Origin: Phytophthora colocasiae
Taxonomy: Eukaryota > Oomycota > Peronosporomycetes > Peronosporales > Peronosporaceae
NCBI GenBank assembly: GCA_018806915.1
Contig: JAGKQI010000103.1
Location: forward strand, 1,054,001 to 1,118,000
Length of the DNA: 64,000 nucleotides
Direction of reading: 5' to 3'
The notes under the pieces are model-generated. The model was not told the origin of the DNA and did not search any database. It worked only from the letters and a program-made list of their open reading frames with translations. The translations under genes and the position numbers were made by a program. Of the stretch, positions 9,377 to 63,190 are shown piece by piece. Each line of letters begins with the position of its first letter. The first letter of the stretch is position 1.

Positions 9377-9567
9377 ACTCGATTACAAGACGCCTCCGAT
9401 TGGCTCAAAATGGGGCGTTGAGGGTAGGTTCATGAGCTCACTAAGGCTTAGAGGAACTCAGAGGACCTCTAACAGCCCATCCCATCCATCCCGCTGTGTG
9501 ATCAGAGGTTCGTAAGTTCAGTTGTACACTCATTTTTCCCTACTTATTGTCAATTTCTGCAGAAGGA

Positions 9568-11639
9568 ATGGAAATCGTCCATTTGCTGAACGCAGACGGA
9601 GAGGACTGGGCGTTCGAGCCCTCTGACACAGAGGAGGAGGAGGAAGGATCAGGCGTCTTGGCCGCAGATGATGAGGGGGGACGAAACGAGACACAGACGG
9701 CACCACAGCCTTTGCCCACTGGTAATGCATACATCGACGGTATTATGCGCGATAGCGGGCTGCATGTAGTGCGCGAGGGAGAAGTTAGAGCTGCTTACAA
9801 GGAGCGGGGGGAATTGGGTCTCTTTTCTCTCTTCTTCACGCGAGACTTTCGTGACTCGTTGCGGACATGGACAAATCAAATTCTCAAAGAAAAAGGAAAA
9901 CCCGAGGCTACAGTGTATGAACTGGACGCTTACATGGGTTTGGAGATTGCAATGAGCTTCAACCCTGTCACAGAAATGAAAGAGCTCTGGTCCCAAAAGG
10001 TCTTTATGGGCCAATCTGATTTTGCAGCGACGATGGCTAGAAATCGCTTCGAGACAATCCGAGCTGCCTTTCAAATTCACGCTCCTGATAGTGTCTCTGC
10101 TGAGCGGTGCGATCAAGATCCGCTGTGGCACAGTCGCCGCCTAATGGCCCAGATCCAGAAGAAGTTCGCAGCGATTGCTGTACCTGTAGGTGCTATTAGT
10201 CTCGATGAGAACACCGTACGCACAAAGGCGCGGTCGTCAGCGAGGACGTACCTACCGTCGAAGCCTGACAAGTATGGGGTGCGGTTCTACGCGGTGGTGG
10301 GCTGGAAGAGCCTGTATGCTTACTCTATTTGGGATAATGGCTCCGGGAATCGGACGAGAGCGACACCTGCAGAGAGGTATGTAGGCGTATTCCCCGCTCT
10401 GCGAACAGCACTTTTAGGACGTTGGAGCGTTCAGATGTCGCGATCAAACGGAAAGATGCTAGTGCTTTATGGGTTGCTATGAGTGGCCACCTTACAAAGA
10501 TCCACGCGGCGCCTAACTGTCACCGCCTTCTTGTGTGTGATAATTTTTACACACGACACAACCTGGCGAAGGCGCTGCTAACTTTCACGGATGGGGAAAT
10601 GCGCATGCTGGGCACTGTACGTATACCGTTGCAAGGAAAGTGGAATGCTATTGGTCTGGATGCAGCTAAAGCGCGTGTAGCTGCTGCAGAGCGTGGAAGC
10701 TGGGAGCTCATCGCAGCAATAGATGTACCAGTCGGATGGGAGAAACTTCAAGAGAAGCATAACCGCGAGCAACAGAAGCTTCCAGCGCACCTGAGAACGT
10801 CATACAAGCCGCCGATGTCGTTTGCTGAGAACGCGGGCTACGTCGTCTATCGGGACAAGAACACTGTGGTCTTCTATACTATTGACCTCGCTGGTACAAT
10901 GACTGAACCCATGTTGCCGGGCACATCTACGGAAGCCGTCCGACTTTGTCGTAGTCTTGCCCCCCTTCGGCGCTGGACAGGCGACCAAGTAATGCACCGC
11001 AAAACCTTCCAGGCTCCGGCTACAGTTGTAGCATACAACATCTTTATGAATGGTGTGGATAGAGTCGACCAGTTGAGAAGTACCAACCCGATCCGCCGCA
11101 AGGAGAAGCGGCTGTCAATGAGCTTGCTGACATGGGCTCTGGACCTTGCCTTGATCAATGCCTTCGCGCTATTCAAAAAGGTGGCTGGATCAGCCGTAGA
11201 ATGTGTCACTTTGCGCGAATTCAAACAACGTGTTGCTGAAAAACTTACCGCCGTTCAGCGTACTCGGCGGAAGAAGGAACGCTGCCGTCGTCAACCCCAA
11301 CCTAACGAGCCGCTTGAAGATTTAGTGGGGCAGATCCAAGATTTACATGCAATTACACCAAACTCAAAGAAGCATTCAAGCGGTAAACTGGCTTGTTACC
11401 TGTGCACGCTGCGCGGCTTCTCGAAAAAAGCGGTCTATGGCTGCACTGGTTGTCAGCGGGGATTCCACGTAGTGTGCTTTACCGCCTTCCACTACCGCGA
11501 CGCCCTCACATCCAACTCACTTGGGGTCCGCTCCGCGTTAGACGCTGTCTGTGCTGAGGCGTCAGGCGATGGGCTTGTGCACACACGACTAAAGAAAAAC
11601 AGAACCATCACACATCTTAGTGAGCTAGAGTTACCATAA
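9568..11639 (+). pseudogene. piggyBac transposase, single frameshift
   Basis: This is the cut-and-paste transposase of the surrounding element (DDE family Tnp_1_7). The first frame runs from the ATG at 9568 to 10482 and includes the block DPLWHSR, the first catalytic aspartate in ISLDEN, and YLPSKPDKYGVRFYA. The second frame takes over at about 10410-10440 and runs to 11639 with CDNFYT (second aspartate) and NGVDRVDQ (third aspartate). It ends in a cysteine-rich zinc domain (CYLC...CTGC...H...C near 11395-11475) typical of piggyBac C termini. An acidic N terminus precedes the core. The frames overlap by 60 bp and differ by one base step, so one indel inactivates an otherwise intact enzyme. 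Confidence 0.85.
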
Positions 11640-19085: not shown

Positions 19086-22000
19086 GTGACGATTCTCGAC
19101 AACATTGGACTTCCCCTGGTGAATCGAAAGCCTAGAGAAATTACGGAACGGTTATCAAGCGTTCCAGAGAAGGCCCGCCGAAGCGTTCGACATCAGCGGA
19201 GGGGGCTTATTCGACGGATCGTTCACCAGCTAGTGTTCGAGGAGGAGACGTTAGACCCTCGACCGTGTGGCACCTGCCAGATGAAATTGAGTGACCGGAG
19301 GGATCCCCGCGAGAAGTATAGTCGGGAGTTCCTTCTGAAGGAGAAGGAGCTTGAAATGCGAGCAAGGGCGTACTTGGAGCGTTCCGTGGATCACTTGGAG
19401 AAGAGTATCGTGGACATTTTGATACAAGGAATTAAGTACCGATACGTGCTGGACTCAGACGGGATTCGTAGGAAGCTAACGGATCGTACTCCTACGTGTG
19501 AACTGTGTCGCATTTTATCTAAGCGTTCCTCGCGAAGAGGCCGCGTCTGCAACGTCCGCTTTGACCATTCTGCGTTACTCGCTAACCGTTCCGAAGCGTT
19601 GGGAACGCTTAGCTCAAGTGAAGATCAGCCGGGGGGCATATATGAGTACGCCCACGCCGTGTCGGATGCGACGGCCAAGGATCCTGATCAAAAAGAACTA
19701 AGCGAGGTGTCCGGCTCCGAAGTGCTCAGTGAGGATGAAGGCGACGCAGTCGTTCCAGAAGGCAAACGTGTTATCGGTTCTGTGGGTGGGGTGGAGGCCG
19801 TCTCTACGGGCTATATCGACTGTCTACCTACCGCTATGCTCATCGACTCGGGAGCTGTTGCCAGTCTAATTGACAATCGCGTACTGAAGAGGTTGGGAAT
19901 GACGGACGCTCCCTTGGAACCGTACCCTCAGGAACTGAAAGGCGTGTCGGGTCAAGCGTTACGAGTTAAGGGAATCGTCCGCCTACCCATGCGGCTGGGG
20001 TCGAAGGAGCTAATCCGGCCTTTTGTGGTGATTGAGAAGCTGCATGTTGATGTAATCCTCGGAACGGACACGCTTAGAGCGTACCGAGCAGTAGTCGACC
20101 TGGATGAAAGTACGGTAACGCTTAAGGATACTGGAGAAGCGTTCGCCATCGGGTCGCCTCGGGTGGAGGAAATGTACACCACTCGTATTAGCTCTACGGT
20201 ACGGTTATGTCCTGGAGGGCAAGCGTTGGTGGTGACCGATGAGCAAGGAAAAGCGGCCGATGACTCTACTGTGCTCGTCGAAGGATATGTGGACCTGGAC
20301 GACACGGTGAAAGTGGCTCGAACCCTGTGTACTGTGAAGGAAGGCAAGGTCGTGGTGGAAGTGTGTAACGCTTCAGAAGAGGACGTGATCATTAAAAAGG
20401 GAACGCTTATCGCCGCGGCTACGGTAGTGCCGGCGACCGCCTTTGCTTACGAGAAGGACAATGTGGATGACCGGAACGCTTCCGCAAATGGAACGGATTG
20501 GGTAAGTTCCGTGCTGGGAACGGTTAGTTCGCGTTCTGAACCGTCCCGAGACCCCATGCCTGCCTTGGACGAAGCGTTACGACAAGAGTTTAAGGTGGAC
20601 TTTACGGGATCGAAGTTGAGCTCTGAGCAGCAAGGGCTGTTCTCTTCTCTATTGGAGTCTTTCGCTGACATGTTCGTGGAAACCTCGATGAAGCCGGGTC
20701 GGACCAACCTTCTAGAGTTCTCTATAGATACGGGAGACAATGCTCCAATCAAGCAGAGACCGTACCGGGTTTCTAAGGCCGAAGGTAATGTAATGGAAGC
20801 CGAGATCCAACAATACCTCGATTTGGGGATAATACAACCGTCCTCGAGCCCATGGGCGAGCCCAGTGCTTATGATACGGAAGCCTGATGGGGGCATACGC
20901 TTCTGCATTGACTACCGGAGACTGAACGCTGTTACTATTAAGGACTGCTACCCGATGCCGCTCATTGATGACATCTTGGACGTTCTGGGGAATGCTAAAC
21001 TGTTCTCTACTATGGACATCGCCTCCGGGTATTGGAACGTTCCGATGGCAAAAGGAAGCGTGGAGAAAACAGCATTCACCTGCAAGTACGGGCTGTTCGA
21101 ATGGTTAGTGATGCCTTTGGCTTATGCAACGCGGTGCCGGCTTTCGAGCGACTAATGGAGAACGTACTAGTGGATCTTAAGTGGCGAACTTGCTTGGTGT
21201 ATCTCGATGATTGTGTGGTGTTCAGTGAGGACTTTCCTACCCACTTGGTACGGTTAAAACAAGTTCTGGAACGGTTCCGAGCGGCTGGATTCAAACTCAA
21301 AATGAAGAAATGCAAGTGGGGACGCGACCAGGTAGCGTTCCTGGGACATATAGTAACGCCTTCAGGGATACTGCCTAACCCGGAGAAGGTGAAGTCGGTG
21401 ATGACCTTGAAGAACCCGCACGACTTGCATACCGTTCGAGCGTTCCTAGGACTGACGAGTTATTTCCGACGATACATTCCGGGGTACGCTGCGATCACCG
21501 CTCCCATAGAACGCTTAAAGGGAAAAGGCGTTCCGTTCGAGTGGTCCGAAGACTGTGAGTCAGCGTTCCGACAATTGAAGCGGAGGCTGGTGGAGCCCCC
21601 AATCCTAGTGTACCCGGATTTCTCGAAGCGCTTCAAATTGTATGTGGACTCTTCCACGATGGCTATTGGAGCGTGCCTAATGCAGACAGTGGACGGACGG
21701 GAGCGAGTGGTAGCGTATGCGAGCAAATTGCTCGTTGGATCCGAGAAGAATTGGGTCAACAAGACCAACGGAACCTCCGAGATCGAATGTTGGGGAATCG
21801 TATGGGCTACGAGGAAGTTCCGCTGCTACTTGGATCGTCGTGAGTTCGACTTATACACGGACCACAAAGCGTTGACTTGGGTATTTGACGAGAAGAACCG
21901 TACCAGTAACGCTAAACTGGCACGCTGGGCTATGGAACTCTCGCAGCTACGCTTCAAAGTGTTCCATAAACCTGGGACCGCTATGGGTCACGTGGATGGA

Positions 22001-48367: not shown

Positions 48368-49201
48368 CTACGCTACACTTGGATTGAGGAGTCGGTCGAA
48401 CTTTGCCTCTAGCTGCTGCTCAGGAGACAGAATACCCTGCTTCTCAAGCTCTTTTTTGCGTTCCTTCTCCTTGGCATTGAGTGCTGCAATACGCCGTTTG
48501 TTACGAGTGCTGAGGTCGTCACGCACTACCCGCTTCATGCGCTTGAAAATCTCTGGCACTGAGTGGGAATGGAGAAAGCGCAGTAGATCACTCTTAGGAG
48601 CGTAGTGTTCTCCCAGTACGTTGCGTCCTACATGACAATCAACCATCAATTCAATTCACACAGTACACTCACACGTAGACGTACCCCATAATTGAGCGAT
48701 ACCATGAGTATCGCGACGGAATTCCAGTGGATCTTCTTCCAGCGCTGTGATCTGCAGATGTCGAGGCTGGAAAACACCAGTAGTTTCAATAATTTGCTGG
48801 ACTCGGAGGCTTTCAAGCTGGTCTTCCAGTCTCCTTTTAGTGACAGCGCTTGATGTCGACGATAGAAGCCGCAGTAGATCTGCCTGGACACGAACTGAAC
48901 TCGTTTGGAGCTTTGACTCTCCATCTTCGTGCGCTTTCTGTCTGCGTTTCAGCGTGAGCTTCTTCCGTGTAGAGTTCGTATGCATACCGAAATCGTCTGA
49001 CGCTTGTAGAAGGCGCTCGAAAGGACTGACATCTCGTTCGTACTGGTATATCTCCCATACATCCTCTGATACTTCGTCAGCCTTCTCCACCGCTACAACC
49101 ATACACAGCAACGTGTACGGAGCTTCTCGCCTGCCTCCATCACTTGGAATTGCAGCATCTTCCAGATACAAATCCAGGGAGGGAGTGTCCTTGCCAGTCA
49201 C
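48368..49201 (-). CDS. Unknown two-exon protein, start missing
   Basis: Exon one is open from about 49216 to 48685 and exon two is 48627-48368, joined by a GT-AG intron of 57 bp with matching phase. Exon one has TGKDTPSLDLYLEDAAIP, a hydrophobic strand (TLLCMVVAVE), and charged helices. Exon two is helical and basic (RMKRVVRDDLSTRNKRR, EKERKKELEKQG). There is no ATG in the frame, and a neighbouring frame just upstream looks continuous with it, so the 5' end is broken. No family is recognised. Confidence 0.4.
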
Positions 49202-49540
49202 CAGCCAACGGATGCCTTCTGCTTACTGCTCTTGCCCTTGATAGCTAGTAGTAGAGAACTGTATTATCTAGTTAAGACAGCACGCAAAACGCTTCCGGAA
49301 GCATATTTCACAAATTTACCTTGCAATAAAAGGTCGTCAAGCCACTAAAATGTGCCCTGCCAGTTGCACTCCGCTCTAGTAAATCAACGCTTGGCGACCA
49401 ATGGCGGCAAGGAAGACCTCCCGCCATGCTCATCACCGTTCCAGGGGAGAAATCCGCAAACGACACCTATTGGCTAAAACGACGTGAATATCACTTTAAA
49501 GACGAAAGGGCTTCTAACAAGGTTTTTCTCTGAGGTTTTT

Positions 49541-49578
49541 CTTATCCCAGCAAAGCTGGGATAACGGTCGCCGGTGGG
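49541..49578 (-). repeat. Right inverted repeat of the TTAA element
   Basis: Pairs with the left end and keeps the same internal palindrome. TTAA follows at 49579. Confidence 0.9.
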
Positions 49579-49582
49579 TTAA

Positions 49583-50627
49583 TTCCTGCCGCGTTGTCGC
49601 CTTCACCGGGATCGGGAGGCGGCATTTCTTGCTCTTCCGAGGCTTCTTCTCTTCGGGAGTCCTCATCCTTGGGAGCGTTCTCCGTTCCCTTTCCACTCGA
49701 ATCCATGAACTGCACGTGCACAACTTTACGCTTCCCCGTAGGTTTGTAGGGTGGCCATTGGAACAACACTCGTACCGCGCTTACATCACTCTCGAACCGT
49801 TCCTCTAAAGCTCTAATAACCTCTGGCTTCAGGGACCCCCGTTCGACCTCTGTGGGGTACTGTTCCTCCGTTCCACCGTTCCTACTTTCCTCAATTTCCG
49901 TCGTTGACCGTTCTCCGTGCTCTTCTTTCCGTTCTTCACCGTTCATGGTTTCTTCCTCATGCGGCTCCCTATCTTCCGTGCAAACGCTGCTCGCCACCCT
50001 AGCGGACGCCGTCACCTCGACAGGCTGTCCCTCTTCCAGGCTGGCCATCTCCTTGTAGTCAGCATAGTAATCGCAAAAATAGTCCTCCTCTTCAGTGGTA
50101 GCCTCTGCTACTCGACTCTCCAATGGCAATAACGCTTCAGCCATCATTTTCTCCTCTTCCCGTGTATTCTCCGCGCGGTAATCGTAGATAAATTCCCTCC
50201 TGGGAACACTCTTTCTCTCAGCACCAGACGAGCTCTCGCGCTTGTCTTCTTCAGCGGAACGCTCCGTCCCGTTCTCTTCTCCAATATCCGTCATCTTTAC
50301 ATCCGTTTCAGTCCGTTCACGCACGCCCCTCAAAGCGCTAACCGTTCTCTTCGCATCCAGGCACGCTTCAGCCCTTCCAAAGTTACGCGAGTCCTCACGC
50401 TCGCCATCTTCCACGGAACACTCCGTCCCGCACTTCTCTCCTTCAATATCCGTCTTGTTCACAGCAAATTCAATCCCTTCATCTACGCTTTCCACAGCGT
50501 TAACCGTTCCCATTTCATCCTGGTACGCTCCAACTTCTCCCAGATCTTGCACGGAAGCGTTCCCAGGTGTGTCATCTCCTAGACAAGAAGAAGGGTCGAC
50601 ACTCCCTTCCCCTTCCTCCTGCCCCCA
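49583..50627 (-). pseudogene. Upstream half of the ORF following gag, after an in-frame TGA
   Basis: The frame opens directly after the gag stop TGA (50628-50630), in the same register, and runs to the TTAA insertion at 49582. It continues at 28614-27996 for a total of about 555 residues. The sequence is very acidic with repeated Glu/Ser/Thr and no enzyme motif I can see. The first ATG is about 36 codons in, so readthrough of the gag TGA is a possible mode of expression. In this copy it is interrupted by the 20.96-kb insertion. Confidence 0.6.
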
Positions 50628-52904
50628 TCATTGGCGACCCGCAGTAGTGTCCCCTCCGGTCGTGGCTGCGGTCTTCTCCTGGACGGAGAGTCGAGAGAGA
50701 AGTAGCTTCGTAGGGCAGTTAGCCACTCGGTGGTCAGGACTATCGCACAGGAAACAGGTACGCTTATAACCGTTCTGGGTACGGTTCGCAGACTGTTGGC
50801 TAGAACGGTTCGATTGACTTTGCCCGCGGGGCTGCTCGCATTCCACGTAGACATGTCCCTTTGTCTGACAATTCGAGCAGACAGCATTACCACGACGGCA
50901 ACTAAGCCGGTTGCATCCCAGAGTGTGGCAACGACCACACACGACCTGGCCCTCCTGGGTATGCATGTCGGGGCCTTGGCGGATTCCTCTAACAGGGGTC
51001 TCAGGCGCCACCGCCGCCACGGTCGTCGAAGCGTGCCCAAACGCAGGGTCTTCGTAATGGGCCACTGCAATCGTCGGAGTAGCGTTCTGAGGAACGCTTG
51101 TCTGAGCGTACTGCTGCTGCTGCTGCTGCGCCAACATGTGCTGCGTCTGTTGCATTAGCGTGAGCATTTGTTGCATCATAGCGTTCTCAGAGTTCTTCGA
51201 CTGTGGGGTGTCTTCAAAGTCAGCGTCATTTTCCACGGGAATGTGCATATTCTTGTAGAGCAGAACCGTTACCGCTTGCGGAATCGAGTCGACCATAGCG
51301 TTCGATAGCGTAGCCTTCCATTCGCGATTGCGCAGACCCGACAAGAAATATTGATACCTCATATCTGAGTCGTAACACCGAGCGTCGTCGCACAGTCTCG
51401 AAATTAAGTCCCCCCAGACCTCGGCGGACATTCCACGCGACCGCGTCGTCTTCTTGAGCAGCTCAATACGTTGCTGGGGAGTTTGGCAGATGAACTGGTT
51501 GTAGAACCGGGTTTTTAAAGTATCAAAATCGTCAATGCGCGAATGCACCCACCACTGTTCTCCTGTCTTGCCTTTCAAGCATTCACGGAACGCACTCAGC
51601 CGAAGCGTGTCATCCAAACCCTCCGTGGCACGCTCGAACGCTTCCCAAAAGCTTCCCGCTCGCTCTGCCGTAGAATCATCCGAGTAGAACGGTTGTAGCA
51701 TCCTTATAGCGTTCCGGATACTAGTTGGCATCCCCAACGGCGCTTGTTGTGGTCGTCCCGCGGGCATGGGGTGCTCATACCGAGGTGAAGCTTGTCCATA
51801 AGCGTTCCTAGCCCAACTCCCGCGTTGCGACGCGGAGATGGGAACGCTTCCTGGTCCGAACGGTTGGGTTGGGTACGGCGTAGCGGCGCTCGTCGCTGTA
51901 GGCTGAGGCCTGGGTCGTTCTCCACTGACATGACTCCGTAGCATTGGCGCCTCTTCTCGACGTAGTTGCCCAACCGACGAGGCAGCGGGGGCTCCAGGAG
52001 GCAAACCGGCCGACTGCGTCTGAGTCACAGGGAACGGTCGCGAGACCGTTAAGAACGGTTGCGAATCCACGGCTGGATAATGCAGCGGGAGCGTTCTCGG
52101 AACGCTAGTCGACACGGGAGTCTGGACGGCATAAGCGGGGGTCGTCATATACGAAGCCGGCGGCGTCCGAACGTGAGTCGAAAATAAGCCCTTCAGCCCG
52201 TAGTCCGCCGGACTGGAAAGGTCCTTCATCGTAACATTGCGGTAACTCGCTATAGCCCCTCTCGTTTGAGGCGTTCTCGTCGAGTGCGGAGCGTTCTCCA
52301 CATACTCACTTGTTCCAGTCCAGGCCGGGATGGATGGTCGGAACGCTCCTCCAGGGAACGCTTGCGTCGGGGGATTAGCGTACCCCTGGGTCCATGGGGC
52401 AGGAACGGTTTGCTCCTCTCTTGGGGCGGCCCACGTCAGAGGAGGTCTCGAAACAGTTTGCTCCGAGGGCAGATATCCCATCATCTCGTAGTAGCTTCTT
52501 GGCGAGGGAACCGTACGTTGGGGCCTACTCCCAGCAGGGCCCTCCGTCATCTGCGTAGCAGGGGGCTTCATCTCGAACGGGTCGTCTCGACGGGGTGGAA
52601 CGCTTCGTGAAGCGTTCCCGGCTTGGGGCGTTCCAGTCCTGGACGAAGCCGTACTCGCACCTCCACTTGGGCGCCTTCGAGCCGCTTCCCCTTGGTCACC
52701 TCCGGCTCCAGCAGCCCACTGTAGCACGTTCGTCCTCACGGCGCTGAGACCTGCCGCGGTCGTCACGTCTGGAGAGCCACTCTGTCCTTCCCTAACGCTC
52801 CTTTGGGACGTCGGTGTATTGGCACCCCAGGAACGCTCTTCACTTCCGTTCCCGGCTCCAGCAGGGAACGCCTGACTCGCCTCTCCTGGCTCTAGCGACT
52901 CCAT
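50628..52904 (-). CDS. Gag of the LTR element
   Basis: Gag forms the particle that packages the element RNA. ATG at 52904 (the frame extends upstream to 52997 without another ATG) gives about 758 residues. The first 420 are Pro/Ser/Arg-rich and disordered. A retrotransposon-gag domain spans about residues 435-570 (GEQWWVHSRIDDFDTLKTRF, MSAEVWGDLISRLCDD). Zinc knuckles follow near the C terminus: CSNCQTKGHVYVEC and CFLCDSPDHRVANC, both C-x2-C-x4-H-x4-C, preceded by a variant CGRCHTLGCNRLSC. A glutamine run lies before them. The frame is intact and ends in a single TGA. It is sense relative to the polypurine tract. Confidence 0.85.
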   Translation of the reverse strand: MESLEPGEASQAFPAGAGNGSEERSWGANTPTSQRSVREGQSGSPDVTTAAGLSAVRTNVLQWAAGAGGDQGEAARRRPSGGASTASSRTGTPQAGNASRSVPPRRDDPFEMKPPATQMTEGPAGSRPQRTVPSPRSYYEMMGYLPSEQTVSRPPLTWAAPREEQTVPAPWTQGYANPPTQAFPGGAFRPSIPAWTGTSEYVENAPHSTRTPQTRGAIASYRNVTMKDLSSPADYGLKGLFSTHVRTPPASYMTTPAYAVQTPVSTSVPRTLPLHYPAVDSQPFLTVSRPFPVTQTQSAGLPPGAPAASSVGQLRREEAPMLRSHVSGERPRPQPTATSAATPYPTQPFGPGSVPISASQRGSWARNAYGQASPRYEHPMPAGRPQQAPLGMPTSIRNAIRMLQPFYSDDSTAERAGSFWEAFERATEGLDDTLRLSAFRECLKGKTGEQWWVHSRIDDFDTLKTRFYNQFICQTPQQRIELLKKTTRSRGMSAEVWGDLISRLCDDARCYDSDMRYQYFLSGLRNREWKATLSNAMVDSIPQAVTVLLYKNMHIPVENDADFEDTPQSKNSENAMMQQMLTLMQQTQHMLAQQQQQQYAQTSVPQNATPTIAVAHYEDPAFGHASTTVAAVAPETPVRGIRQGPDMHTQEGQVVCGRCHTLGCNRLSCRRGNAVCSNCQTKGHVYVECEQPRGQSQSNRSSQQSANRTQNGYKRTCFLCDSPDHRVANCPTKLLLSRLSVQEKTAATTGGDTTAGRQ

Positions 52905-53167
52905 CTTCACTTCGGCGATGTAGTCCTCCTTGAGCTTTTCTTCTTCCTTGTAGAGCCTAGATCCCACCCAGGGGATATACTCCAAAATATAGCGCACAGC
53001 ACTTGGTTGTTAGTAGCCTCTGCTACCGTTCCTTGAGACCAGTCTCCTCTGAGAGTCCTCGTTCGTCCGTAACCCGGCGGAACCGTTCCGCACCCTTGGG
53101 TTTCCTCTTTTCTAGTGCACCTTCGGACTCTCCCTTGCCCCAATAGAGACCTTCTCCAGCAAACAGG

Positions 53168-53185
53168 TACACTGCTTCTCCACCA
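53168..53185 (-). promoter_or_regulatory. Candidate primer-binding site
   Basis: On minus, two bases after the LTR, the sequence reads TGGTGGAGAAGCAGTG. It begins with TGG, complementary to a tRNA CCA end. The tRNA was not identified. Confidence 0.5.
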
Positions 53186-53187
53186 AA

Positions 53188-53681
53188 TGTCACGCACCTC
53201 CCTTGTCGGGGTCGGTACCTGTGGCTGTTAGATGAGTACGGTCCTGAGTGGGGTCTAGAAGTAGAGTAGAGAAGAGTAAGTCCTTGAATAAATGCAATAT
53301 ACGTTGATTCTTGTTCTTGTTCACTTGACTAGGGAAATTCGTAACTAAATAGAAAAAAATGAAGAGCGCAGCATAGTACCACGCCCTTGGGGGTGACACC
53401 TCACCTTTCGCACTCACCGAGCACCGTCGACCTGCCATCCGTCCTTGCAGTCTCCCCTTTCACCAGAGACTCGGTCTCACTTGCCTTCAGCTCCCTCCTG
53501 TCTTGGACCTCCACGTCGCCACCTAGCGCCATCATTGCGGGAAGGTCCCTTACTGATACTGTACCACTGGTACGGTACTCCGGCTTGAGCCACCCAGACG
53601 CCGAGGCCGCGTGGGTCTTTCGGGAGCCCGACCTGGGTCCAACACTGCTGGAACGCCACCCTCGATCCCGGATACGGGACA
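53188..53681 (-). repeat. Right LTR (5' LTR in the minus sense)
   Basis: 494 bp, direct copy of the left LTR. It is followed by AAAT, the target duplication. Confidence 0.95.
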
Positions 53682-53801
53682 AAATCGCTACAGCTACTGT
53701 ATTTCTCTTCACCAGCTGTACTCGATAAAGTGCTCTTCAATTAAAGGGTGCGCTTTTGCTCTATGTACTCAAAAACAGTTTACCTTCATTCCTCTAAATT
53801 G

Positions 53802-53875
53802 GTCACCTCACTTCACGGATTGTGGCAACCGCATCTTGCCATAACCACAAAGCGCCTAGAATGTTGGTCGTAAAG
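53802..53875 (+). repeat. 74-bp spacer repeat, copy A (upstream of Fanzor)
   Basis: Matches 56137-56210 upstream of MAPEG2 with two mismatches over 74 bp. A shorter match (TACCTTCATTCCTCTAA) lies just before it in both places. It may hold shared promoter sequence. Confidence 0.9.
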
Positions 53876-53936
53876 GACAAACCGAGGACAACTTGCACTA
53901 CCGTACTTGGTTCATGTGAACGCTTGTGAGCAAATT

Positions 53937-55850
53937 ATGTTGAAATTCATCATGAACCTAGTATCTATGGAAGCCTTGAAGGCTGCCAAAGGAAGGTGGG
54001 TTGCGCTTCATCACGCCTTTAAACGATGGTTGATCCAAGCTCTTCTCACTTCCGGATTTGCCAATCCCCCAAGAAGCCGACCAAGCGCACCGAGAGAGAT
54101 GGCTTTGGCGCGGCCTCGTTCACGGCCGCGCGAGGACCTCGTACACTCCAGCGAGTGGTTCCAGCGAGCCATCGCAGACGACCTCTGGATGCCTGAAGTC
54201 ACTGAGAGTGCGGGAAGGAGACGGCAGAGACGGAGATACCGTCGGGTACGCCCGAAGAAGCTCAAGAGGCGCAAGCGACATAAGAGAGGTTTTTATCCGA
54301 AGCGACCGCCGACTTTCGTCCGTGACCCCATTCAGGAGCACTTGCGTGTGGTGGAGTCACTACTTACTTCCTGGTTCGACATCGGGAACTTCGCTAACGA
54401 CGATGTCCATGGAGACTGGAGAACGAACAACATGCCGCCTCCTGCTGACATCGTCGAACCGGACGAAGAAATGGCCGACACCGATGACGAAGACGAAGAA
54501 GACAGTACGCCCGTGAACAGCATACTCAAGCTGCGGTTATTCCCGACCTCGAGTCAGAAGGAGAAGCTGGGCCAAATGTTCGCTTCGAATCGTGCGATCT
54601 ACAACAAGCTGGTCGCGTGCTCCAAAGACGACAGGCTCGGGATTACAACAGGGAAGAGGATGTCTTTGTCAGCCTTGTGCAAAAAGTACCGGCCGATCGC
54701 TGTCTTGATGAGCATGTCCAAGCACTTCAAGAACAACAAGAAAGCTCTTGTGAGACATCGCCTGGTCCAAGATGATGTACGCGACTCGGCGTACCGTGAT
54801 TTTAAGAAAGCAGTGAAGTCGTCTCGAGCATTGTTCTTTGCGTTGAAGGCGAAGGGCGAGGAGACCAAGTACCCGGACATGAAGTTCAAGAGTAAGTTCG
54901 CTCCGTCCAACACGATCGAGATCAGGAGTCGACATGTTAGAACAATTGATCAGGACGGAAAGCAGCTTGTGCGATTCCACACAAAGTCCTTCGGGTTTAA
55001 GAAGAACGAAGGCATCATGTTGCATGAGACGCTTCCCGAGCTGACGACGTCCGTTCGGCTGCAGCGCCTTCGAGAAGGAGAGTTCTACATCATCGTCCCT
55101 AGGTTGCGTGAGTTCCCCCAGCCGGAGTGCACGAGATCATGTGCGATCGATCCCGGCGTGCGTAACTTCATCACGGTGTATGATCCGAACGGCCGGACGT
55201 TCAGCGTGAAGGACTCAAGCAATGTCTTGAAGAAGAAGTTCGCAGCGGTGGACGAGATGAAATCCATGCTGCAGGTGATGGACAACGAATGCAAGGCGAG
55301 GCACCCGACGAAAGTTCGAACGAAGGCAAAGAAGGGGGCAAAGAGCGGCAAGACAGCTAAGCATCGATTACGGTATCGTATGCGCAGACGTATCCGCTAT
55401 ACGTCTCGTAAGGCAACTCGCGTGGTGAACGACATGCATCACAAGCTCTCCAGTTGGCTGGCCTCAAATTATCAAAATGTCCTCCTGCCGTCGTTCCAGA
55501 CATCTGAGATGGTGCGCAGATATGAACTGGAGGTGGCATCAGACGCCACCCCAGAGACCCCCGCCACCACCAAAAGAAGAAAAATCAGAAGCCCCACCGC
55601 CAGATCAATGCTGGCACAGGCACACTTCAAGTTTAAGATGCTGCTGAAATACAAGATGGAACGAGCTGGCGGGCGCCTAATCATTTGTGAGGAAGAGTAC
55701 ACTTCAAAGATTTGCTCCAGCTGCGGCGAGATCAAAGAAAACCTTGGTGGAAGCGACGTGTTTCGGTGTTCACACTGCCACGCGAGACACGATCGGGACG
55801 TGAACGCCGCGAGGAACATCTTCCACAAGAATGTGGCATTGCTTCCATAG
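53937..55850 (+). CDS. Fanzor: eukaryotic TnpB-like predicted RNA-guided nuclease
   Basis: Fanzors are eukaryotic relatives of transposon TnpB and Cas12; characterised members cut DNA guided by an RNA from the element's 3' end. ATG 53937 gives 637 residues in one uninterrupted exon. Residues 94-118 are an Arg/Lys-rich nuclear signal and 174-189 an acidic linker. The TnpB-like N-terminal domain starts at about 196 (ILKLRLFPTSSQKEKL, NRAIYNKLV). RuvC-I is SCAIDPGVRNFITVYDP with D405. RuvC-II candidates are E524 (LLPSFQTSEMV) and the glutamates 585-587 (IICEEEYTSKICSSCG). The zinc ribbon uses C593, C596, C611 and C614. RuvC-III is HDRDVNAARN with D621. All catalytic landmarks are present, so the gene may be active. 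It lies between two MAPEG genes, next to the LTR block. Confidence 0.92.
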   Translation: MLKFIMNLVSMEALKAAKGRWVALHHAFKRWLIQALLTSGFANPPRSRPSAPREMALARPRSRPREDLVHSSEWFQRAIADDLWMPEVTESAGRRRQRRRYRRVRPKKLKRRKRHKRGFYPKRPPTFVRDPIQEHLRVVESLLTSWFDIGNFANDDVHGDWRTNNMPPPADIVEPDEEMADTDDEDEEDSTPVNSILKLRLFPTSSQKEKLGQMFASNRAIYNKLVACSKDDRLGITTGKRMSLSALCKKYRPIAVLMSMSKHFKNNKKALVRHRLVQDDVRDSAYRDFKKAVKSSRALFFALKAKGEETKYPDMKFKSKFAPSNTIEIRSRHVRTIDQDGKQLVRFHTKSFGFKKNEGIMLHETLPELTTSVRLQRLREGEFYIIVPRLREFPQPECTRSCAIDPGVRNFITVYDPNGRTFSVKDSSNVLKKKFAAVDEMKSMLQVMDNECKARHPTKVRTKAKKGAKSGKTAKHRLRYRMRRRIRYTSRKATRVVNDMHHKLSSWLASNYQNVLLPSFQTSEMVRRYELEVASDATPETPATTKRRKIRSPTARSMLAQAHFKFKMLLKYKMERAGGRLIICEEEYTSKICSSCGEIKENLGGSDVFRCSHCHARHDRDVNAARNIFHKNVALLP

Positions 55851-55859
55851 TGCCCCACG

Positions 55860-55925
55860 AACTCATTTACCGGCGAAGCCTTCGTCGCGGAGACCTGTCC
55901 ACCTTCTGGTGGATGTTACAGGCCC
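55860..55925 (+). ncRNA. Candidate Fanzor guide (omega-type) RNA scaffold
   Basis: Ten to 75 bases after the Fanzor stop, two stem-loops are readable. The second is strong: CCACC/GGTGG (55899-55903 with 55908-55912) closed by a TTCT loop, extended by CCTGT/ACAGG (55894-55898 with 55918-55922) across a 5-base bulge. The first is GCGA/TCGC at 55873-55888. TnpB and Fanzor guide RNAs are transcribed from this position, overlapping the 3' end of the gene, and end in the guide at the element border. The 3' end here is not defined; the flanking repeat begins at 55997. Confidence 0.45.
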
Positions 55926-55996
55926 AAGAGTACCTTCTATCTGTAGCTGTAGCTGTAGCTATAGTTGTAAGACAGGTAGACTCCTAAGGCGAAACG

Positions 55997-56034
55997 TATC
56001 TATCTAAATGTAATAGTACACAACAAAATAAAAA
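55997..56034 (+). repeat. 38-bp spacer repeat, copy B
   Basis: Exact copy of 18015-18052. It begins 147 bp after the Fanzor stop and gives an outer limit for the Fanzor insertion on the right. Confidence 0.9.
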
Positions 56035-56136
56035 GTCATGATGTGTGTAGAAGCACTCAGCGTTTTAAGCACAAGGTTTGTGTCTTGACTCAAAACTTAC
56101 CTTCATTCCTCTAAGTTTGTCAGGACTTAACTTGAC

Positions 56137-56210
56137 GTCACCTCACTTCACAGATTGTGGCAACCGCATCTTGCCATAACCACAAAGCGCCTGGAATGTT
56201 GGTCGTAAAG
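56137..56210 (+). repeat. 74-bp spacer repeat, copy B (upstream of MAPEG2)
   Basis: Lies 149-222 bp upstream of the MAPEG2 ATG. Two mismatches to 53802-53875. Confidence 0.9.
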
Positions 56211-56358
56211 TACAGGTTTAACATAGGAGAGCTTCACAGCAATAAAATCTCACGCAATCGCCTAACGCAATCGGATCGCTTCAAATAGAGGACCTTTCCC
56301 GCCGTTGGAGTCCCACACAATCCAATTCGACCTGCCTGCCAACCGCACAAGTGACATC

Positions 56359-57009
56359 ATGTCTGGAATTCAAGTGGAGCTGCAGCCAGCTCACGGCTTT
56401 GTGCCTCTGCTCGTGGTGGTATTATTGTTTGTGAACTTCTGGGCTGGCATCAAGGTGGGCAAGGCGCGCAAGCTTTACGGCGTCGACTACCCGCAGGTAC
56501 GTCCAGTATCATCGCAATGATCCGTGAGTGTAACATTCACCGTTCCTGTATATCTTAGATGTACGCGGAGCAGAGCGATAAGAACGCCAAGGCCTTCAAC
56601 TGCGTACAGCGCGGCCACCAGAACATCATGGAGAATATCCCGATTTTCCTCGCGCTGCTCTTCACGTCATCGTACGTTGTTTTTATCTTGGTAACATGCT
56701 GACACATATGATCTAACGTGCGTGCTTGTCCATGGATTCAATGCAGAATCTACCGGCCTCAGATTGCTGCTATTGTGAGCTTCGTGCGCATTCTTGGGTT
56801 TATTGCTTACATGCGTGGCTATTCATCGGGCGACCCGAAGAAGAGACTGCAGGGCACTTTCGGTTTGTGTAGCTTCTCTTATTTTGGTGGTATTTTCCTG
56901 GAAGGTCTAACATTGTGTTGTGCATCATATTGTAATAGGCTACCTCGGTCTGCTTGGAAATCTGGTCTTGACTGTTGAGGCTTCTCTTCGCATGTTTGGC
57001 ATCCTGTAA
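56359..57009 (+). CDS. MAPEG-family protein 2 (microsomal GST3-like)
   Basis: Four exons, 56359-56496, 56559-56671, 56747-56862 and 56939-57009, give 145 residues. The glutathione-site signature is FNCVQRGHQNIMENIP. The N terminus (ELQPAHGFVPLLVV) aligns with MAPEG1, and exons 3 and 4 (116 and 71 nt) have exactly the same lengths as exons 2 and 3 there. The first intron, after DYPQ, is absent from MAPEG1. The donor of the third intron is GTTTGT, unusual but in the conserved place. Function as in MAPEG1: a membrane glutathione-dependent enzyme, predicted. Confidence 0.9.
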
Positions 57010-57743
57010 AAGGATCGGAAGTTGGTACTGTTGGTTGCAGCAGCTATAGCGCGGAGACAACAGAAGAATGCTCACTTTTTCACAACAAAGATCACTCTAC
57101 ATGTAGCGCTGCTTTGTGATTTTCACTATCTCAATTAAAAATTCTATTAGGGATTCTCTAAAGGAATACTAACTGCCCCGACCTTTAGAGATGGTGCATG
57201 AATGCTAGGGAGCTTTATGAGCTACTAGAAAAATAAGTTATAGCTCATGAAACTCTACTTCCACATGCGTCAGGCTATCTCTCATTCTCGACGGCTCTTT
57301 CTTCTCTCGACCAGAGTCCATTCTGAATGCATTGCTACGCTATACGACCCTCTCCCCCCTGCTTAGCATTTCATCTCAGACGTAGGCACTTCGAATCAAA
57401 ACATTTGACAGCATTCTAAGGCTACTGGTACTGAATATGGACCAAGTTCCCTACGAATTCCCGTGTGCAACGCCCTGTTCAAATAATTCATACAGTTCGT
57501 CGCATTTGATAACGACCGAGGCTATCGAGTACATGTACAAAACTCGATTTCTACAGCATATGCGAAGTACGTTTACGACCGAAAAATGTTGTTGCTCACG
57601 GAGCACATACACGTACATGTAACTGTAGACGACCAGCAAACGAACGCTGAATGACTTACCGATTTCACTGCGTCGGATATTCATCGCATCATTCCACATT
57701 TTGCCCTGCAACCAACAATCCTCTTACCAAACACCTCTTCGTC
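57010..57743. other. Intergenic
   Basis: MAPEG2 3' flank and promoter side of the hydrolase array. The last 120 bp resemble the segments just upstream of the other two hydrolase copies. I see no additional gene. Confidence 0.5.
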
Positions 57744-58553
57744 ATGCCGTCGACATCCTTCCAGTCCACCGTCAGCGTCACGCACATCACGACCGCCACA
57801 GCCATCTTGTCCATCGACGACGTCAATTTCCTGCTGGATCCTATCTTTGACAAGAAGGGCGACTTTCAGCAAGAGGGTGGATTTGTCCTCACCAAGACGG
57901 ACGACCCAGCTCTTGGACTCGAGGATTTACCAGTCATTCATGCCGTTCTACTCAGCCACGAAGATCACTTGGACAACCTGGACACATCCGGCCGCACGAT
58001 GTTGAACGGCAGACACGTCCTTACCACTCTCGACGGTGCCAAGAACCTCGCTCCTCGTCCGGGCGTTCGCGGACTCGCACCGTGGGAATCTGTGACGCTC
58101 AAGCTGAACGGGAAGGAGTTCAAGATTACGGGAACTCCCACGCAGCACCTCCCAGGCGGAGAATGCACTGGTTTCGTACTCGAGTCGTCTTCGTTCGGCG
58201 TGAACGAGGCGGATGGTCTTCCAAACGTTGTGTACGTTTCAGGCGACACGGTGCACATTCCGGAGCTGGCGACAGAGCTGCCGAAGAGATACCATATCGT
58301 CGTGGCGCTCATGAACCTCGGCAAGGCTATCGCCCCGCTACCGACAGGTCCTCTTCAGATCACCATGGGCGGCGCACAGGCAGCTCAGTTAACCCGTGAC
58401 ATTGGAGCTGAAAAGATGGTCCCGCTGCACTTTGAGTCGTGGAAGCACTTCACTGAATCCGATGAAGACGTGCGTGCCGAGCTGGCTGCGGATCCGGCAG
58501 TAAAGGATAAGGTGGTGTGGGTGGTCCCTGGAGAGAAGACCACCATCGTTTAG
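57744..58553 (+). CDS. Metallo-beta-lactamase-fold hydrolase, copy 1
   Basis: A metal-dependent hydrolase of the Lactamase_B_2 type with unknown substrate. ATG 57744 gives 269 residues and matches the start of the other copies; an in-frame ATG at 57651 would add 31 residues, but its frame is not conserved upstream of them. The metal motif is VLLSHEDHLDNLD near residue 70, the variant of H-x-H-x-D-H seen in one branch of this family. Further metal ligands are expected in PTQHLPGGE, VYVSGDT and VPLHFESW, all present. No introns. Copy 1 differs from copy 3 at the N terminus (PIFDKKGDFQQ) and the C terminus (FTESDEDVRAEL). Confidence 0.85.
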   Translation: MPSTSFQSTVSVTHITTATAILSIDDVNFLLDPIFDKKGDFQQEGGFVLTKTDDPALGLEDLPVIHAVLLSHEDHLDNLDTSGRTMLNGRHVLTTLDGAKNLAPRPGVRGLAPWESVTLKLNGKEFKITGTPTQHLPGGECTGFVLESSSFGVNEADGLPNVVYVSGDTVHIPELATELPKRYHIVVALMNLGKAIAPLPTGPLQITMGGAQAAQLTRDIGAEKMVPLHFESWKHFTESDEDVRAELAADPAVKDKVVWVVPGEKTTIV

Positions 58554-58931
58554 GTAGTACTACCCTATGTGCAATGTAGTAGGAGACTGAAATACTGGAA
58601 TGCACGTGCACCTATGCTCCTCGTTTTGCGCTGTTTAGCGTTTTATCTCTTTCATCTGCTGCTCCCGTTAATACTGAGCTTGTTTCTCCCCCACGATGCT
58701 CGCAATGCCGATGTGGGTTGCAACACTTCATACTACGTTTCGAATAGGAGGCTTAACACAGTGCGCTTCTCGGCTCTTGTCGCTGCCTGTTCCTATTTCT
58801 CTAAAGCCTCGCTTGCTCTGCCTCTGTCGAGGAATCATTATCGTGTAGAATGCTATGGTGTCTACCAAACGGGGCAAAATTGCAAGGATGAGCTAAGATA
58901 TAATAAACGATCGAGTCTCATTGCTGGTTGA
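58554..58931. other. 3' flank of hydrolase copy 1
   Basis: No gene supported. Contains an ATAATAAA-like polyadenylation sequence near 58900. Repeated almost exactly at 60872-61249. Confidence 0.5.
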
Positions 58932-59904
58932 ATGCTTGTTAGTTGCCAACTGAGTTAGCAACCGGACCTCTCAAAAAAGCTAGCGGCTACTGACGGCGGG
59001 TAGCAGCGTTAGTCGGTGGTGCGGGGACAGGGTGGGGCTTGGAGGCAACCATTTTCGTCAGCACAGAGCACTTGCCTTCGAAGTGAGAATAGTCGTGGGT
59101 GAGCTGTAGAGAAACGATGGAACCGGGAGTCAGGCGGAAAGTGATGAAGACACTTTTGAAAACGAGATCGCTCGCTCGCAGTTGAAGAACGTAGTATAGC
59201 CCGAAAATGGCTGCTGAAAGTCGAGTAAACTTGATAGATTGCATTCCGCGCTTCCAAAGGCGGCCGATTTCAAAGTGGCGTTTGTTGCGGGCCAAACGCA
59301 GTGGAGTGTGACGCTGCGGATAATCGTCCAGAGAATCTTGAGTTCAGGCGCGTAAGAAAGCTGTGAGCGCGGCCAGGTGGGTACTAGCGGAACACAAACT
59401 ATTTTCCAAGTAATTGCAGGTAAGAAAAGTCTGGCAACAATGCCCCATAGCACGGCGACACGAGCACATCGAAAAACAAGTGCTTCTCGGTTTCAACAGA
59501 AGTGCAGTCAGGGTACCCGCGCTGCAAGACATTCTCCGACGTATGTTGGAGAAACCACAACCGAGAGCGTGTTGGCAAATGCTTCCAACACAAGCGGAAT
59601 TGCAGATCAGCGTAGACAGGAAGGACCACCTGACGAAGGTCTTTGAGCGCCAGGATGGTATCCACCAAACTCTCACGAGTAAATTCAGCAAATGGTAAAC
59701 AAGGGGGTGGCTACGCAGCTCCAGCGTATGACCCATGAAGATCCGGTGGATATTGCGCTTTGGTTAGAGACGGAAAAGCACTGAGCACACCGTTTTGAAA
59801 TACCCCAAACGGTAGAGCAAAAACATCTAGCGTGACCGGTCCTCGTAATAAATCATCAGGACGTACAACTTGGCCTACCAGTGCGGTTAAGTCGTCGTAA
59901 AATA
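58932..59904 (-). mobile_element. 5'-truncated LINE copy 1
   Basis: Matches the last 980 bp of the LINE at 8211-9190, reversed. The peptide EARNAIYQVYSTFSSHFRAI is the LINE C terminus. An 11-base deletion and other small changes break the frame. The cut point at the 5' side falls at the LINE sequence TTTACGACGACTT. 5' truncation is typical of target-primed reverse transcription. Confidence 0.9.
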
Positions 59905-60061
59905 CGACCGCGCATTGCTGTACACAAGGGAGAACAGAATTGTAGACGACCAGCAAAATGAAAGCTGCATGACTCACGGACTTCGTTGAGTCATACCTCC
60001 ACAACATCATTCCACATTTTGCCCTGCAACCAACAATCCTCTTACCAAACACCTCTTCGTC

Positions 60062-60871
60062 ATGCCGTCGACATCCTTCCAGTCCACCGTCAGCGTCACG
60101 CACATTACAACGGCTGCAGCCATCTTGTCCATCGACGACGTCAATTTCCTGCTGGATCCTACTTTTGACAAGAAGGGCGACTTCGAGCAAGAGGGTGGAT
60201 TTGTCCTCACCAAGACGGACGACCCAGCTCTTGGACTCGAGGATTTACCAGTCATTCATGCCGTTCTACTCAGCCACGAAGATCACTTGGACAACCTGGA
60301 CACATCCGGCCGCACGATGTTGAACGGCAGACACGTCCTTACCACTCTCGACGGTGCCAAGAACCTCGCTCCTCGTCCGGGCGTTCGCGGACTCGCACCG
60401 TGGGAATCTGTGACGCTCAAGCTGAACGGGAAGGAGTTCAAGATTACGGGAACTCCCACGCAGCACCTCCCAGGCGGAGAATGCACTGGTTTCGTACTCG
60501 AGTCGTCTTCGTTCGGCGTGAACGAGGCGGATGGTCTTCCAAACGTTGTGTACGTTTCAGGCGACACGGTGCACATTCCGGAGCTGGCGACAGAGCTGCC
60601 GAAGAGATACCATATCGTCGTGGCGCTCATGAACCTCGGCAAGGCTATCGCCCCGCTACCGACAGGTCCTCTTCAGATCACCATGGGCGGCGCACAGGCA
60701 GCTCAGTAAACCCGTGACATTGGAGCTGAAAAGATGGTCCCGCTGCACTTTGAGTCGTGGAAGCACTTCACTGAATCCGATGAAGACGTGCGTGCCGAGC
60801 TGGCTGCGGATCCGGCAGTAAAGGATAAGGTGGTGTGGGTGGTCCCTGGAGAGAAGACCACCATCGTTTAG
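60062..60871 (+). pseudogene. Metallo-beta-lactamase-fold hydrolase, copy 2, chimeric, nonsense mutation
   Basis: Full-length homologue, but a T-to-A change at 60708 turns a leucine codon into TAA (60707-60709) after 215 residues. It removes the conserved VPLHFESW metal-ligand region, so the product should be inactive. The first part (to about 60185) is identical to copy 3, while everything from about 60232 on follows copy 1, including FTESDEDVRAEL after the stop. The switch lies within 60186-60231. It is the expected product of unequal crossing over between copies 1 and 3. Confidence 0.9.
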
Positions 60872-62380: not shown

Positions 62381-63190
62381 ATGCCGTCGACATCCTTCCA
62401 GTCCACCGTCAGCGTCACGCACATTACAACGGCTGCAGCCATCTTGTCCATCGACGACGTCAATTTCCTGCTGGATCCTACTTTTGACAAGAAGGGCGAC
62501 TTCGAGCAAGAGGGTGGATTTGTCCTCACCAAGACGGACGACCCAGCTCTCGGACTCGAGGATTTACCAGTCATTCATGCCGTTCTACTCAGCCACGAAG
62601 ATCACTTGGACAACCTGGACACATCCGGCCGCACGATGTTGAACGGCAGACACGTCCTTACCACTATCGACGGTGCCAAGAACCTCGCTCCTCGTCCGGG
62701 CGTTCGTGGACTCGCGCCGTGGGAATCTGTGACGCTCAAGCTGAACGGGAAGGAGTTCAAGATTACGGGAACTCCCACGCAGCACCTCCCAGGCGGAGAA
62801 TGCACTGGTTTCGTACTCGAGTCGTCTTCGTTCGGCGTGAACGAGGCGGATGGTCTTCCAAACGTTGTGTACGTTTCAGGCGACACGGTGCACATTCCGG
62901 AGCTGGCGACAGAGCTGCCGAAGAGATACCATATCGTCGTGGCGCTCATGAACCTCGGCAAGGCTATCGCCCCGCTACCGACAGGTCCTCTTCAGATCAC
63001 CATGGGCGGCGTACAGGCAGCTCAATTGACCCGTGACATTGGAGCTGAAAAGATGGTCCCGCTGCACTTTGAGTCGTGGAAGCACTTCGCGGAACCCGTC
63101 GACGATGCACGTGCCGAATTGGCTGCGGATCCAGAGGTGAAGGACAAGGTGATGTGGCTTGTCCCTGGAGTGAAAACCACCATCGTGTAG
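62381..63190 (+). CDS. Metallo-beta-lactamase-fold hydrolase, copy 3
   Basis: Intact 269-residue paralogue of copy 1 with the same metal-site motifs (LLSHEDHLDNLD, TQHLPGGE, YVSGDT, VPLHFESW). It has its own N-terminal variants (PTFDKKGDFEQ) and C-terminal variants (FAEPVDDARAELAADPEV, VMWLVPGVK). Its 3' flank is unique, unlike copies 1 and 2. It is probably the original second gene of the pair. No introns. Confidence 0.9.
   Translation: MPSTSFQSTVSVTHITTAAAILSIDDVNFLLDPTFDKKGDFEQEGGFVLTKTDDPALGLEDLPVIHAVLLSHEDHLDNLDTSGRTMLNGRHVLTTIDGAKNLAPRPGVRGLAPWESVTLKLNGKEFKITGTPTQHLPGGECTGFVLESSSFGVNEADGLPNVVYVSGDTVHIPELATELPKRYHIVVALMNLGKAIAPLPTGPLQITMGGVQAAQLTRDIGAEKMVPLHFESWKHFAEPVDDARAELAADPEVKDKVMWLVPGVKTTIV

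Follow-up and report, generated by a model that had tools for sequence, protein, structure and literature searches.

A probable Fanzor2-type nuclease gene on a non-IS607 element of Phytophthora colocasiae, with a candidate guide scaffold at its right end

The open reading frame (ORF) at 53937..55850 (plus strand) of the analysed stretch of Phytophthora colocasiae DNA probably encodes a Fanzor2-type RNA-guided DNA nuclease with a complete RuvC site of the relocated-glutamate type, carried on an oomycete element that is not of the IS607 type and whose right end would be the guide scaffold; we give this reading a probability of about 0.75. The stretch, called the window below, comprises 64,000 nucleotides (nt) of contig JAGKQI010000103.1 (assembly GCA_018806915.1, positions 1,054,001 to 1,118,000 of the forward strand), and coordinates refer to it unless a contig is named. 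The 137 nt of the right end most likely form the scaffold of the enzyme's guide RNA, and the DNA directly beyond them would be the guide. The enzyme would cut an empty copy of the element's insertion site, which would help the element to persist.

The protein and its predicted active site

The protein contains the Cas12f1-like TNB zinc ribbon of Pfam (6.6e-21), the N-terminal OrfB helix-turn-helix (HTH) domain (PF12323: 24.7 bits, cut-off 21, 1.7e-5) and the NCBIfam family guided_TnpB (134.9 bits, cut-off 100). Its top sequence match in the PDB is the mimivirus Fanzor2 L79 (9b0l), with 3.7e-15 for the single sequence and 2.6e-22 for the profile. The AlphaFold2 model used is based on 73 alignment rows and has a predicted local distance difference test (pLDDT) score of 85; an earlier model of 10 rows (pLDDT 52) was discarded. 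The predicted fold is TnpB-like and aligns with that of 9b0l, a solved Fanzor2, over 433 residues at 19% identity. The Fanzor1 SpuFz1 is matched at only 6.1e-5 by Foldseek, whereas 9b0l comes first by both sequence and fold; the position of SpuFz1 outside the 50 matches listed in the fold alignment is uninformative. The TDG motif, which marks the WED domain of Fanzor1 proteins (PMC10711439), is not present in the protein. By its ranked matches in sequence and predicted fold, the protein is of the Fanzor2 type, nearer to Fanzor2 and IS607 TnpB than to Fanzor1. An earlier note on this DNA had named it a Fanzor from the sequence alone, and both the profile matches and the confident model agree.

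The residues of the putative catalytic site were examined in an alignment (A4) of the window protein and 72 of the 120 proteins found, fragments and near-identical rows being excluded. The RuvC-I aspartate D405 in the DPG motif (55149..55151) is conserved in 73/73 rows, the relocated RuvC-II glutamate E586 (55692..55694) in 71/73 and the RuvC-III aspartate D621 (55797..55799) in 72/72. The two rows without E586 are both distant matches (P0017, E 1.6e-5, and P0022, 5e-4). The zinc-ribbon cysteines C593, C596, C611 and C614 (55713..55778) are kept in 72/73, 72/73, 71/72 and 69/71 rows, so that the C4 zinc finger followed by an RD motif (here R620-D621), by which Fanzors are recognised, is present. 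In the published Fanzor fingerprint, six residues separate the glutamate that follows DPG from the first CxxC (PMC10711439); the position of E586 fits it, and with loosened spacings 65/73 rows match. The alignment thus points to a complete RuvC site formed by D405, E586 and D621. All of the residues named in the earlier note (D405, E524, E585-587, D621 and the four cysteines) lie where it placed them, and its proposal of a relocated RuvC-II glutamate is correct once narrowed to E586. Its other candidates fall away: E524 is ruled out as the catalytic glutamate (kept in 18/72 rows only), and of the three glutamates in EEE the middle one alone is conserved (E585 14/73, E587 21/73).

A second Fanzor2-like lineage of about 29% identity occurs elsewhere in the genome (L087, L088 and L089, on C93, C42 and C100), with several open frames of 475-597 amino acids (aa). 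It has DPG and, ahead of the zinc ribbon, E-M-Y-T; S-E-M stands where the window copy has E-E-E, and again the middle glutamate alone is kept.

The ORF consists of 637 codons plus a stop, with no internal stop, as had been claimed; the naive probability of 637 stop-free codons is 5e-14, a length well above chance. The earlier figure of 637 residues holds for the open frame; the protein probably has 583, as the likelier start of the coding sequence is M55 (54099-55850) rather than 53937, a point that is not settled. The later start is favoured because the nearest protein (P0001) begins at M55 and because the DNA at 53937-54077 recurs, with indels, in short copies too small for the ORF. Residues 1-54 show 7 nonsynonymous and 3 synonymous differences, which favour neither start. 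Against M55 stands an unbroken paralogue (L034), whose frame likewise runs open from the upstream ATG. What had been called a strong nuclear signal is a basic stretch at 54213..54311 (aa 93-125, K or R at 20/33 residues), a possible nuclear localisation signal.

The nearest proteins come from Phytophthora and Nothophytophthora. The genome searched comprises 92.5 Mb in 105 contigs, and 72 stretches of it match the protein, many of which are fragments or contain stops. The earlier statement that most TnpB-like eukaryotic copies are decayed agrees with this; the window copy is not the only intact one, since a copy at C84:750849-752765 is also unbroken (92% identical) and the second lineage has open frames. 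Between the window copy and C84:750849, the synonymous divergence (dS) is 0.151 and the nonsynonymous divergence (dN) 0.039, a ratio of 0.256 (0.12-0.14 for aa 401-637; Fisher p 3.6e-12). The protein was therefore selected for function during the divergence of both copies; this is past purifying selection, whose end the ratio cannot date for either copy.

Element borders, duplications and the right end

The conserved right end (55854..55990, plus strand, 137 nt), which is the candidate guide-RNA scaffold, has a sharp border across many copies and ends ...CTCCTAAGGC. The border common to the copies (...GTAGACTCCTAAGGY) lies at 55990 in the window copy. The terminal 17-mer occurs at 39 places in the genome with up to one mismatch, and the reversed pattern at none. 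Allowing up to two substitutions gives 42 right ends among the loci examined, including L056 (plus strand), which has no right-end homology and is likely a chance match. In most of them (35/42), the match to the 126-nt probe comes to 20 nt or less from the beginning of the probe; the other 7 stop early, among them L056 as well as L091 and L103, which extend for about 18-29 nt. The left-end region of the window copy (53914..54077, plus strand) is common to short copies without the ORF and, compared with the longest left end among the copies (L038), is missing the outermost ~24 nt. At 12 places, left and right ends lie within ~700 bp of each other, too close for the ORF; these short copies are read as deletion derivatives because scraps resembling the 3' part of the ORF remain in them. 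Concerning terminal inverted repeats, no pair of at least 25 nt was found in 49000-60000 and none was seen by eye between the ends, very short ones being possible. Two right ends (L102 and L065, at C97:691833 and C97:694042) face outward ~2.2 kb apart and have the same flank word, GTTGGAATTCG, inverted.

When the border is set after AAGGY, the next 11 bases recur upstream at 9/42 right ends (6 exact, 3 with one mismatch), compared with a mean of 0.95 and a maximum of 2 in a swapped-tag control of 20 trials. In an offset control, 9 of 42 right ends match at boundary offset -1 and 10 at offset 0; because the matches overlap, offsets from -2 to 3 score too, and offsets 13 to 22 give one exact match each of 32. 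Full-length tags were used in this control; short tags produced artefacts at offsets of 40 or more. Because the neighbouring offset scores 10, the duplication is 11 bp or slightly more. A C sits two bases ahead of it in 9/9 copies; no preference is claimed at its first base because the search motif biases toward G. The unbroken paralogue L034 is among the nine copies with a duplication. In several copies, extra unrelated DNA separates the left duplication from the recognisable left end; that of L034 has a 94% match at C84:480548-480735, where the genome match lists show no Fanzor.

The sequence at 55854-55990 folds at -46.7 kcal/mol, compared with a shuffle mean of -37.35, and 5/200 shuffles are as stable. 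Two hairpins are predicted in it. P1 (55871..55887, plus strand) is nearly invariant in an alignment (A3) of 25 of 32 right ends (4 without recognisable P1 as well as L062, L068 and L092 were left out), and hence has no covariation support. P2 (55894..55922, plus strand) has the core CCACC-TTCT-GGTGG; its arms vary among copies yet pair, and two pairs are changed on both sides. Among the 32 right ends the arms are TCCACC/GGTGGA (12), TCAG/CTGA (7), CTAG/CTAG (2) and extended forms (5); 4/32 yielded no P2 in this survey, and L068 was misread by the script. The variation of P2 supports a selected hairpin, which may act in RNA or in single-stranded DNA alike.

The candidate guide (55991..56010, plus strand), i.e. 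the 20 bases past the right end, is proposed by analogy with TnpB and Fanzor systems; when up to three mismatches are allowed, it does not recur elsewhere in the window. The guide RNAs of Fanzor1 extend past the target duplication (PMC10711439). By this analogy, the best reading is a scaffold whose end coincides with the element border, followed by the flank as guide. On that reading, the right end would be transcribed, the RNA would be bound and would guide cutting, and the copies without the ORF would be used in trans.

Direct repeats of ~155-165 bp, with indels between them, lie at 53744-53899, just before the Fanzor element, and at 56073-56238, just before a MAPEG-like first exon at 56359 (PF01124, 17.8 bits, below the cut-off of 23.4). 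Elsewhere in the genome, the core of this repeat does not occur. The repeats were rejected as a target duplication, as the second begins 82 bp past the right end.

Weighing of the explanations

Some of the findings count against the proposed nuclease and its scaffold. The distance from DPG to E586 is 178 residues and exceeds the 120-160 of the published search expression (PMC10711439). The z-score of the right-end fold (-2.18) is modest, P2 is missing in L019 and has 3 bp only in L049, and RNAalifold on 25 copies finds two-sided change in 3/22 pairs with a small covariation term (-0.79). No Rfam family matches the right end at threshold; in 53700-56300 there are two sub-threshold matches (E 0.42 and 0.49). 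The window copy itself has no target duplication at up to two mismatches.

The last point, together with the missing outermost left end, also suits an unexpressed gene that is unbroken owing to recent spread and has no present function. Many genomic relatives are fragments or contain stops, and a frame may remain open by chance for a time after insertion. Such a passenger is a serious though unlikely alternative, since the window copy and C84:750849 are both unbroken at dS 0.15 with dN/dS 0.26, a selection whose end is undatable. Instead of forming a guide scaffold, the right-end hairpins could be needed, as DNA or RNA, by the machinery that moves the element, whether a reverse transcriptase or a one-ended transposase. 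This would explain why copies without the ORF retain the right end, as any element needs its ends; it also agrees with compensatory change that suits single-stranded DNA as well as RNA, and with copies that are 3'-anchored and 5'-truncated. We regard it as doubtful, because characterised TnpB and Fanzor elements use their right end as guide scaffold (PMC10711439); both uses may coexist. The host might also have taken over the gene and kept it as a single, stable one, with the duplicated region upstream of its MAPEG-like neighbour perhaps driving it: the direct repeat precedes both genes and nothing else in the genome, and the protein was under selection. Another contig carries an unbroken copy that has a target duplication, so that selection may have acted on a mobile family, and a host takeover is improbable.

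An IS607-type transposon moved by a serine recombinase is the usual carrier of Fanzor2 proteins, which are known from IS607-like elements (PMC3627910), and the right end closes with GG and a nearly fixed base; IS607 elements fix the right-flanking base. This carrier is very improbable here. IS607-like elements are described without target duplication in the part of PMC3627910 cited, in contrast with the 11-bp duplication at 9/42 right ends, and the serine recombinase domain PF00239 has no match in six frames of the genome, compared with 10/14 control genomes (intron-split genes could escape such a search).

As a tentative reading, the Fanzor2 may have become part of a one-ended, 3'-anchored element that would spread in the manner of a short retroelement. 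The dozens of copies so produced, of which many lack the ORF, would each carry the scaffold and use their own flank, from the 11-bp duplication onwards, as guide; a few intact Fanzors would act in trans, and the C two bases before the duplication would be part of the target motif. This reading as a whole has a low probability. The fixed 3' end, the variable or truncated 5' end, the short duplication and the failure to find inverted repeats resemble MCi-2 of Mucor and partly the CRe elements of Chlamydomonas. Target-primed reverse transcription may leave the same marks as one-ended Helitron-like movement, and no choice is made between them. Helitron proteins are abundant in the genome (150 matches scored); in the DNA read next to the right-end copies, for several only ~290 nt upstream, we noticed no reverse transcriptase. 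The window contains an open LINE-like ORF at 5002-9114 (1370 aa, endonuclease and reverse transcriptase domains); it was rejected as the carrier, as the right-end motif is absent from its 3' region and common flank words reach 10 nt at most.

Neighbouring genes and known Fanzor elements

Three tandem genes of the metallo-beta-lactamase fold (PF12706) lie at 57651-58553, 60062-60709 and 62381-63190, the middle ORF being shorter. An ORF at 19086-21155 resembles those of long terminal repeat (LTR) retrotransposons, with aspartyl protease and reverse transcriptase domains, and one at 9547-10482 resembles a transposase (DDE_Tnp_1_7, PF13843).

Mimivirus L79 (ApmFz2, 9b0l) shares the HTH, the RuvC domain and the TNB zinc ribbon with the window protein, and its relocated glutamate aligns with E586; the differences are the low identity of the aligned part (19%) and the longer basic N-terminal region of the window protein. 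The ISvMimi elements carry a serine recombinase (PMC3627910); none was found in the six-frame search of this genome with PF00239. The nearest protein (P0001), a 'putative transposase L79' of P. citrophthora, is 90% identical over 92% of the query and has the same residues. The table of Bao and Jurka (2013; PMC3627910) has one entry in its second count column for each of P. sojae, P. capsici and P. ramorum. If that column is the one for Fanzor2, as the other rows suggest, both kinds of Fanzor occur in these three species; the Fanzor2 families PSo, PCa and PRa belong to the same genus-level group. The non-IS607 Fanzor2 transposons of Chloropicon and molluscs are likewise duplication-making elements (PMC10711439); that source describes them as cut-and-paste transposons with terminal inverted repeats, whereas neither the search for pairs of at least 25 nt nor inspection by eye found such repeats in the window element. 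MCi-2 and CRe-1/2/3 have a fixed 3' end, a variable or truncated 5' end and target duplications, whose length is 11 or 12 bp in MCi-2, which has no inverted repeats, and ~7 to 19 bp in CRe; in contrast with the window element, they carry Fanzor1. Their duplications follow ATAATTNNNN(N) in MCi-2 and T-rich tetranucleotides in CRe, neither of which is seen in the window family; one-ended Helitron-like movement was proposed for CRe, and MCi-2 was left unclassified (all PMC3627910).

The open-licence literature searched yielded no description of a Fanzor2 element that is one-ended and makes 11-bp duplications. Phytophthora Fanzors and an L79-named nearest protein are already known, and the carrier is of a type not described for Fanzor2 in the literature examined. 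What Fanzors target naturally, and how they help their elements to spread, are general questions. This genome offers unbroken genes, a bounded candidate scaffold in ~40 places, target duplications from which the empty sites can be defined, and a base preference next to them; natural targeting is therefore directly testable.
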